From contig CAIJZX010000037.1 in assembly GCA_903825245.1 (NCBI GenBank), positions 1-51,907 of the forward strand: DNA of 51,907 nt, in the 5' to 3' direction. Both the position numbers and the translations under genes were made by a program. Every line of letters begins with the position of its first letter. Positions within the stretch are counted from its first letter, which is position 1. Origin of the DNA: Candidatus Kerfeldbacteria bacterium. Its GTDB lineage: Bacteria; Patescibacteriota; Patescibacteriia; SBBC01; CAIJZX01. Below are positions 3,059 through 12,408 of the stretch, one piece after another. Below the pieces are notes generated by a model, which was not told where the DNA came from, did not search any database, and was given only the letters and a program-made list of their open reading frames with translations.

Positions 3059-3570
3059 CGGTGTGGCCATGCCAATCTTGGGTACGCACGTTGAACGTTC
3101 CCAGAATGGTGTAGAGGCGATCGCCGATGGCGAGCTTGCCGGTAAATGAGCGGAGGCTGAACTTCTGGCCGAAGGGCGCCGTAACATTCGTCATAGCGAG
3201 TTGTCCGGTACCGCAATCATCTCCTTCGAGATTGACGGTGACAACATCACCGGATTTAATGTCCGCTAGGTCATGCCGGCCTCCCGAGAGTTTCCACTGC
3301 CGAAACATGTGCTCCTCGATTCTGAGGGATGAAGGTAAAAGCCAACGCCCCGTCCTCGTCCAGGATGGTGAGTTGCCACCAGGGAGCGTAGTTTTCATGA
3401 ATAGCTCTGAGCACGAATACGTCGTAACGTCCGCGCTCCAACTTAATGGTGACCGCCTGATGGTTACTGCCGCGTTCGCAGAGTGCCATATCGAGCGTCA
3501 GTTGGAGCATTATGACGACCTTCAGTTTGCTCTTCGGCAGCGTGTCTACTTGGTGTGGTGTGACAGCCAC
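3042..3570 (-). pseudogene. Hypothetical protein split across two minus-strand frames (frameshifted)
   Basis: Frame 1 (3570 to about 3340) MAVTPHQVDTLPKSKLK...RYDVFVLRAIHENYAPWWQLTILDEDGALAFTF, then protein-like sequence in another frame, EEHMFRQWKLSGGRHDLADIKSGDVVTVNLEGDDCGTGQLAMTN..., to 3042. Confidence 0.5.
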
Positions 3571-3848: not shown

Positions 3849-3919
3849 GCGGGTATCGTATATCGGTATTACCTCAGCTTTCCAAGCTGATGAGAGGAGT
3901 TCGACTCTCCTTACCCGCT
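3849..3919 (+). tRNA. tRNA-Gly(TCC)
   Basis: Acceptor GCGGGTA/TACCCGC, anticodon arm CAGC-TTTCCAA-GCTG, T arm AGGAG-TTCGACT-CTCCT; CCA not encoded. Confidence 0.9.
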
Positions 3920-3963
3920 CGCGGGACGGAATTTTCAGTAGATATCAAAATGTCGTGCGGGAC

Positions 3964-4090
3964 AAGCTGATGAGAGGGTTGAGTCGGCATCCGGAGGATA
4001 GCGACTGAACTGCTTCAGTCGCGGCCGTCGAAACGAGCAGCGCATGTTTCGAAGGAACAGCGATGCCTAGGACTCTCCTTACCCGCTCCA
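3964..4090 (+). ncRNA. tRNA-Gly 3'-half-like sequence interrupted by a structured insertion, ending in CCA
   Basis: AAGCTGATGAGAGG ... GACTCTCCTTACCCGCTCCA repeats the tRNA-Gly 3' half with about 92 nt inserted in the T arm. Confidence 0.6.
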
Positions 4091-11172: not shown

Positions 11173-11436
11173 ATGGCGCATACGAAACCCCGACGAAATC
11201 ACTCGGCCTATCGCTGTGAAGCGTGTGGCGGACGATTTCATCACGGTCAAACCATCGATGTAGGTATCAAAGGAAGTGGTCGCAAACGCCGGATTCATAA
11301 GATCGCCGCTTGTATAAAGATCTGGACCAAAGTGGGACCCGAGCGGATGTTGAAATGGATCGAGCTTCGGCAACTATTGCCGACCTCACGGCAACAGCCA
11401 GTATTTTTCCAGGAGGGACAATGCAAACAAGCATAG
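11173..11436 (+). CDS. Small Cys/His-containing protein (possible zinc-binding)
   Basis: GAGGG upstream; CEACGGRFHHGQT...RRIHKIAACIK. Confidence 0.6.
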   Translation: MAHTKPRRNHSAYRCEACGGRFHHGQTIDVGIKGSGRKRRIHKIAACIKIWTKVGPERMLKWIELRQLLPTSRQQPVFFQEGQCKQA

Positions 11437-11901: not shown

Positions 11902-12039
11902 CTCCCGCTCCCAAAGCAGGCGCGCTTCCGGGGCGCCGCCTGTTCCTTCGAAACATGGCGTCGTCCGTCTCGATCGTCGGAAGCAAAGCAGTTTGCTTCC
12001 TGACCGTTACACGGTCACGATCTCGACCCAACTGCGCCA
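11902..12039 (-). ncRNA. Split tRNA-Pro-like copy carrying a structured insertion in the D loop
   Basis: ccaactgcgcca (12028-12039) and gctcccaaagcaggcgcgct (11907-11926) are exact repeats of tRNA-Pro segments, separated by 101 nt. Confidence 0.6.
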
Positions 12040-12057
12040 TTCATAAAATATCCACTG

Positions 12058-12130
12058 TCGGGGCGCCGAGACTCGAACTCGGGGCCTCCTGCTCCCAAAG
12101 CAGGCGCGCTACCAACTGCGCCACGCCCCG
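12058..12130 (-). tRNA. tRNA-Pro(TGG)
   Basis: Acceptor CGGGGCG/CGCCCCG, anticodon arm CCTGC-TTTGGGA-GCAGG; CCA not encoded. Confidence 0.9.
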
Positions 12131-12213: not shown

Positions 12214-12289
12214 TGGTGCGCCCGGAGGGAGTCGAACCCCCAACCTTCTGGTCCGAAGCCAGACACTCTATCCATTGAGCTACGGGCGC
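12214..12289 (-). tRNA. tRNA-Arg(TCG)
   Basis: GCGCCCGTAGCTCAATGGATAGAGTGTCTGGCTTCGGACCAGAAGGTTGGGGGTTCGACTCCCTCCGGGCGCACCA. Confidence 0.92.
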
Positions 12290-12318: not shown

Positions 12319-12408
12319 AGTCCCGGGCGTCGCTGTACCTATGATACATCGCGCCGCCCGTCTCGTCCCGCGAAAACTGAAGCAGTTCAGTTTTCTTGTA
12401 GACTCAAC
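12319..12408 (-). ncRNA. Structured RNA element upstream of tRNA-Arg (same family as 3978-4075 and 11927-12032)
   Basis: GTTGAGTC ... AAAACTGAA-CTGC-TTCAGTTTT ... TGTA-TCATAGG-TACA ... GGGACT. Confidence 0.55.

Follow-up and report, generated by a model that had tools for sequence, protein, structure and literature searches.

What is the short folded sequence that recurs beside tRNA genes in a 51,907-nt contig of Candidatus Kerfeldbacteria bacterium, and how did it come to be there? This stretch (CAIJZX010000037.1, hereafter the window) makes up the whole of contig C37 in G000, a genome of 1.30 Mb, and an earlier note, made from the letters of the stretch alone, had pointed to three copies of a structured element next to tRNA genes. 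We find a family of units of about 85-120 nt with a conserved fold, and the element is very probably TLR-like, the Patescibacterial form of a tRNA-linked repeat (TLR). Known since 1978 from the tRNA and rRNA operons of Escherichia coli, TLRs are still unexplained there, and they are treated as enterobacterial in the literature that we found. With the same anatomy present in about one tenth of the sampled Patescibacteria, at new positions too and with hundreds of covarying pair changes, what had been a curiosity of one group can be studied comparatively, and the origin and the job of TLRs become testable across two distant bacterial groups. It would also account for short tRNA and 5S pseudogenes and for double terminators in these genomes. 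We found no relevant literature on such elements for Patescibacteria; the flanking tRNA fragments, the direct repeats, the cases at 5S and msrA genes, the second class and the match to TLR anatomy were all absent from the earlier note.

A conserved fold with changing stems

The outer stem of the element, P1, pairs GTY-GA-G.. with ..C-GA-RAC, and its tandem GA is sometimes swapped for Watson-Crick pairs. After the 5' strand of P1 come an optional hairpin P2, a hairpin P3 with the near-invariant apex AACTGCTT, and domain 2. The three copies of the earlier note exist (3978-4072 on the plus strand, 11927-12027 and 12321-12408 on the minus strand), and its P3 hairpins (GCGACTGAA/TTCAGTCGC, GGAAGCAAA/TTTGCTTCC and AAAACTGAA/TTCAGTTTT) and second hairpin (TGTTTCGAAGGAACA / TGTATCATAGGTACA) are found exactly as it gave them. 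Its count of three is too low for the genome, which holds eight to nine copies: the pattern AACTGCTTN{10,30}CGARACG occurs there at 8 sites, against 0 for a reversed control, one of the 8 (on contig C29) being a chance match, and R1, a covariance model built from six copies of this genome, finds nine sites, seven of them strong and the ninth weak (E 0.07). The string GTTGRGTC, put forward as a shared start, is not significant by itself (4 window matches, 2.98 expected), and the copy near tRNA-Pro begins with GTCGAG at 12027, not with GTTGGGTC, its supposed leading GTTGG being D-loop sequence of the tRNA.

In an alignment of 44 copies, fitted to the R1 structure and hence biased toward it, 94.1% of cells are paired and 24 of the 28 pairs have changed on both sides (277 cells). 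For all this bias, the covariation score of 0.628 is far above the 0.185 of shuffles, of which 0 in 500 reach it, and it falls to 0.05-0.08 when partners are slid by 1-3 columns. Together with the model hits across genomes, these pair counts exclude chance as the origin. Stems are wholly different among copies within one genome, and between L018 and L051, orthologous copies in two congeners, every stem differs and the fold is kept.

Mismatches are asymmetric (G-T 25 vs A-C 8; G-A 36 vs C-T 4), so the folded strand is the tRNA-sense strand. The earlier note had read the covariation as selected RNA structure; compensatory change holds on the 44 copies, and the choice of RNA rather than DNA is not settled by it. 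The G.U share, intended as a test between the two, is 1-4% in element stems vs 4-5% in tRNA stems. Apical loops are C(GNA)G in 29 cases and GNRA in 2; as GNA loops form exceptionally stable DNA minihairpins (PMC4686876), the element may also have a role as single-stranded DNA.

Linkage to tRNA genes across the phylum

Models were run on Patescibacteria, sampled at one genome per species, and on E. coli loci. Of 59 related genomes, 15 have the element according to R1, and one of these, from the same family, carries 17 copies; model R2 detects it in 15 of 389 genomes across the phylum. R3, a covariance model from a more distant class (class 2), has hits in 42 of the 389, at no more than 10 copies each; it also picks up, in the window's genome, seven copies of class 1, the class of the window copies, and the two classes are therefore homologous. 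The related matches include Kerfeldbacteria and Uhrbacteria. Among viral contigs, none of 49 pattern hits is real according to the covariance model.

For 51 of 76 copies the distance to a tRNA gene is at most 200 nt, where 1.8 such copies are expected; 49 of these 51 are co-oriented with it, and 17 isotypes are represented. The linkage that the earlier note had proposed from three loci thus holds on 76 copies as well as on 30 independent class-2 hits. Of the outcomes which it had named as counting against its reading (a known Rfam class, covariation lost with more homologues, no homologues near tRNAs elsewhere), none arose once a covariance model and a search of relatives had been run, and homologues do stand near tRNAs elsewhere. 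Pieces of the neighbouring gene, mostly a tRNA and sometimes 5S rRNA or msrA, flank the element: 40 of the 76 copies have a flank that recurs less than 500 nt away at a level over the 99% null. Two loci (L024 and L036) neighbour 5S rRNA genes, and some units lie upstream of a tRNA, past a terminator or antisense.

In class 1 the element follows ..GG and replaces a T of its target. Read by eye, the sites fall in the D-loop (Pro, Ile, Phe, Lys, Val, Ala, Met), in the variable loop (Arg, Pro) and in the anticodon loop of tRNA-Pro(GGG), and the antisense partner strand (the 5' strand of P1, GTYGAG..) is carried by the element itself. The match of the tRNA fragments to sister-genus alleles often equals or exceeds that of the intact neighbour; that is, the element tends to occupy the older tRNA copy.

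Several loci deserve separate mention. At L055 (G002:C1:188500-191900), three successive units precede an intact msrA-like gene, which we take to be msrA from its ATFGGGCFW motif, read by eye. The fragment before each unit encodes ATFGGGCFW with differing synonymous codons, and the fragments appear to be serial pieces of different msrA alleles. At L053 (G002:C1:737500-740500, positions 1480-1576), the element lies inside the T-loop of a tRNA-Thr(CGT) that is complete in all other respects and is followed by a terminator; the same genome has a second, intact Thr(CGT) elsewhere. A tRNA intron was rejected at this locus, given that second gene and the fact that exact removal would not restore the T-loop. 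At L067 and L068 (G049), units are inserted beside a palindromic CCCGGAT..GATCCAGAA repeat, so that two repeat families adjoin.

Copies in the window

The three copies of the window stand among the following features.

3849..3920, plus strand: intact tRNA-Gly(TCC), CCA not encoded (ARAGORN; Rfam tRNA 55.8 bits)
Around tRNA-Gly(TCC): inverted repeat of 9-10 bp, GTCCCGCGA/TCGCGGGAC, leader/trailer pairing score 10
3963..3977, plus strand: fragment a of the Gly locus, CAAGCTGATGAGAGG, 15 nt identical to the anticodon-to-variable-loop region of tRNA-Gly
3978..4072, plus strand: element, Gly copy (R1 88.3 bits; covariation)
4071..4088, plus strand: fragment b of the Gly locus, GACTCTCCTTACCCGCTC, 18 nt that repeat the 3' end of tRNA-Gly exactly and in direct orientation, from the T-loop onward
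11902..11926, minus strand: fragment b of the Pro locus, AGCGCGCCTGCTTTGGGAGCGGGAG, tRNA-Pro resumed past the D-loop T, one mismatch
11927..12027, minus strand: element, Pro copy, with the additional hairpin P2 (GACCGTGTAACGGTC; R1 100.3 bits)
12028..12039, minus strand: fragment a of the Pro locus, TGGCGCAGTTGG, 12 nt that match the D-arm of tRNA-Pro without a mismatch as far as G18G19
12057..12130, minus strand: intact tRNA-Pro(TGG), CCA not encoded, flanked by the inverted repeat ATCCACTGT/ACAGTGGAT (ARAGORN)
12214..12289, minus strand: intact tRNA-Arg(TCG), CCA encoded, inverted repeat of 12-13 bp on both sides (ARAGORN)
12321..12408, minus strand: element, Arg-leader copy, upstream of tRNA-Arg(TCG) at a distance of about 30 nt (R1 92.1 bits)

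In the Gly copy, P1 reads GTT-GA-G.. / ..C-GA-AAC, P3 occupies 4001-4022 with the apex given above, and domain 2 carries the second hairpin. The closing helix GAGTC-GGCATC/GATGCC-GACTC of the earlier note survives as a minimum-energy alternative for this copy; it is not a family feature, the comparative fold having P1 instead. The 21 nt preceding the Arg-leader copy resemble the tRNA-Arg anticodon arm weakly, under threshold.

The earlier note had not recognised the family, and Rfam agrees: scanned down to the gathering score or E <= 5, the window copies give only tRNAs and clear chance or antisense-tRNA matches, so that identity with an Rfam family was rejected even at a low threshold. A hammerhead ribozyme, suggested by CTGATGA...GAAAC near the Gly copy, was also rejected, CTGATGA being tRNA-Gly sequence that is missing at the other copies.

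Some further features of G000 concern its tRNA genes. Perfect leader/trailer inverted repeats of 10-18 bp lengthen the acceptor stem of some of them and are enriched beside the element: the pairing score is at least 10 in 6 of 8 tRNAs near an element, compared with 7 of 38 others. Such repeats are frequent in G002 and G003 also around tRNAs that have no element. Tandemly duplicated tRNA genes occur with no unit present at G000:C28:24430-24763 (two tRNA-Asn) and G000:C2:479-734. Another contig carries a unit together with tyrosine recombinase genes at 3260 and 10418 (G000:C41:3260-11312), the truncated 5' half of a tRNA-Gly gene near 5.7 kb and a complete tRNA-Gly(GCC) at 11241; the region looks like an integrative island with tRNA-Gly boundaries.

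Class 2 and the anatomy of TLRs

A class-2 locus opens with an intact tRNA, in many cases followed by a terminator; next come a strand antisense to the T-arm of that tRNA, hairpin domains and an exact repeat of about 19 nt from the tRNA 3' end. Of 30 hits, 25 are directly downstream of a tRNA and co-oriented with it; the unit starts from a few nt to about 45 nt past the gene, with two loci at 120 and 157 nt. The strand that matches the 3' side of P1 is antisense to the T-arm of its own tRNA, with GA in place of TC, and its fit to that tRNA exceeds its fit to other tRNAs (p = 2e-6 for the training set, p = 7e-11 at 25 R3 loci). A repeat of roughly the last 19 nt of the tRNA stands after the unit at 18 of these 25 loci; among mismatched pairs the figure is 12 of 586. 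The Gly copy of class 1 shows no evident T-arm antisense strand, its match being 6 nt long.

Units also occur in tandem, with an 84-nt direct repeat and a unit restart in L039, and two units at tRNA-Leu(TAG) in the congeners G107 and G167. The occupied tRNAs that these congeners have in common are Leu(TAG), Ile and Arg(TCT), and the remainder are not shared: there is partial turnover of units between congeners.

E. coli TLRs (Egan and Landy 1978; Rudd 1999; reviewed in PMC8144298) have as their common feature 18-19 bp identical to the 3' end of the upstream gene, with 22 cases in K-12 (PMC8144298). At E. coli tyrT, the RtT units have exact 19-nt repeats at 178-bp spacing, and their strand GGGGAAGGAT-GA-GAAG is antisense to the T-arm, with GA standing in for TC. 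Exact 19-nt repeats and an antisense T-arm strand with GA are likewise present at tyrV and at proK, where the strand, GAGGAT-GA-GAACCTCCG, and the repeat lie past a terminator. At tyrT and proK the parts thus follow one another as in class 2. An E. coli genome has RtT at 1-14 places; one example, at tyrT, has ten units and another has a single unit. At the rrnB 5S gene, a unit lies between both terminators and ends in an exact 18-nt repeat. Three E. coli TLRs contain two C(GNA)G triloops each, compared with 0.03-0.05 in shuffles. The rrnB T1-T2 terminators are used in many expression vectors; their spacer (NC_000913.3 4171757-4171930) has TLR anatomy, with an 18-nt repeat of the 5S 3' end and trailer and two C(GNA)G hairpins.

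The Gly and Pro copies of the window are downstream of their tRNA and co-oriented with it, as TLRs are, and the Arg-leader copy is not. The Gly copy is followed by a 3'-end repeat of TLR length (18 nt, exact); the Pro and Arg copies have none, their flanks being internal tRNA pieces. Judged by anatomy, class 2 and the Gly copy are TLRs, and the other two window copies represent a variant at different positions of the tRNA.

How the element may have spread

The likeliest mechanism, to which we give about even chances, is that the element is mobile. It would be small and non-autonomous, mobilised in trans, and its folded strand would recognise tRNA loops by pairing. Entry into a tRNA gene would duplicate part of the target, so that a working tRNA remains; recombination between the repeats would multiply units in tandem, and the units, co-transcribed with the tRNA, would persist as a by-product or as a small RNA. 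In favour are the tRNA linkage, the duplicated flanks, the tandem units and the partial turnover between congeners. Several observations weigh against this mechanism. A mobilising protein was not found among Y1 transposases, reverse transcriptases and tyrosine recombinases: the Y1 (HUH) transposase is missing from carriers G000, G001, G004 and G023, and reverse transcriptase from G000, G001, G003, G004 and G033, so that both were rejected as partners, and tyrosine recombinase, encoded by 58 of 59 genomes, is for that reason uninformative. The unshared stems within a genome and the stem turnover between L018 and L051 speak of long conservation, not of fresh transposition; about 20 of the 76 copies have no tRNA within 400 nt; and no species offered a filled and an empty site to compare. 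Sequence models do not tie the family to RtT, and the likeness could be convergent: R2 and R3 give no score on E. coli tyrT, and RF00391 has no match in the window, in its genome or in four class-2 loci.

The main rival, possible if on balance unlikely, is a functional small RNA that is transcribed with the tRNA, excised, and acts in trans or binds a protein, with mobility incidental and the 3'-end repeat a duplicate of the site at which the tRNA or 5S RNA is processed. The co-orientation of 49 of 51 tRNA-near copies and the fold maintained through complete stem turnover would fit, as would the TLR RNAs of E. coli rrnA, rrnB and rrnD, which are transcribed, processed and bound by Hfq and CsrA in vitro (PMC8144298). 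However, TLRs have no known function, the claim of a tyrT phenotype having been retracted (PMC8144298), certain units lie upstream of the tRNA, past its terminator or antisense to it, and sequence is strongly conserved only at the P3 apex AACUGCUU. A repeat of the last 19 nt or so from the T-loop beside an intact upstream tRNA is also the footprint of tRNA-targeting integration, and the units might be attL/attR-like remnants of integrative elements that use the T-loop, the folded unit being the recombination site of a tyrosine recombinase acting in trans. Near-universal tyrosine recombinases would allow this, yet their presence is uncorrelated with the element, no cargo or integrase lies between the repeats at any locus seen, and class-1 units occupy D-loops, anticodon loops, 5S and msrA, where restoration of a 3' end is inapplicable; we regard this origin as improbable.

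Tandem duplication of tRNA genes followed by decay, with the element an old operon spacer kept by chance, would explain why fragments are often closer to sister-genus alleles than the adjacent tRNA is, as expected of old duplicates. Decay does not yield 24 covarying pairs out of 28, and the same unit stands beside tRNAs of 17 isotypes, 5S and msrA, which makes this account very hard to sustain. Hardly credible at all is an RNA-guided system that would use the fragments as guides, with the intact tRNA as an escape variant. At some loci fragments do differ from the intact neighbour at compensated positions, but tRNAs next to an element show no greater divergence from their orthologs than other tRNAs do (six tests, smallest p 0.10), and the guide reading was rejected as they are not evolving faster; a partner nuclease was not found.

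Beyond the mobile-element mechanism itself, it is doubtful, though conceivable, that the TLRs of Enterobacteriales and the Patescibacterial elements form one ancient class of mobile element, with a folded single strand that recognises the tRNA's own T-arm by pairing, a fixed tandem G.A step, and insertion accompanied by an 18-19 nt target duplication. If true, this would be a mode of mobility not described before and would give the origin of the E. coli rrnB T1-T2 double terminator.

Comparison with known systems

Folded repeats of other kinds share single traits with the element. Integron attC sites also keep a fold while sequence drifts and offer possible single-strand recognition, but the element has GTY...RAC rather than RYYYAAC...GTTRRRY, no cassettes and a linkage to tRNAs, and attC was rejected on its box order. 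REP/BIME and IS200/IS605-derived elements are likewise short, folded, non-coding and mobilisable in trans; unlike them, the element is tRNA-linked and flanked by target fragments, and several of its carriers lack the Y1 transposase.

The nearest likeness is to E. coli TLRs, which are found at tRNA and 5S genes and in tandem arrays, have units of about 150-180 bp and no known function. They differ in their hosts (Enterobacteriales instead of Patescibacteria), and the Patescibacterial element has in addition its conserved P3 with the AACUGCUU apex, its own P1 strand in class 1, and copies within D-loops, variable loops and anticodon loops, as well as upstream of tRNA genes and at msrA. RtT (RF00391; rttR at tyrT and proK) resembles class 2 in its intact tRNA, its GA-bearing antisense T-arm strand and its exact 19-nt repeat, and shares GNA-triloop hairpins with the Patescibacterial elements, whereas no model matches in either direction: the two are of the same kind, not of the same family. 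The T-arm antisense strand, the GA step, the GNA hairpins and the repeat of about 19 nt are defining rules by which all bacteria can be searched for such elements.
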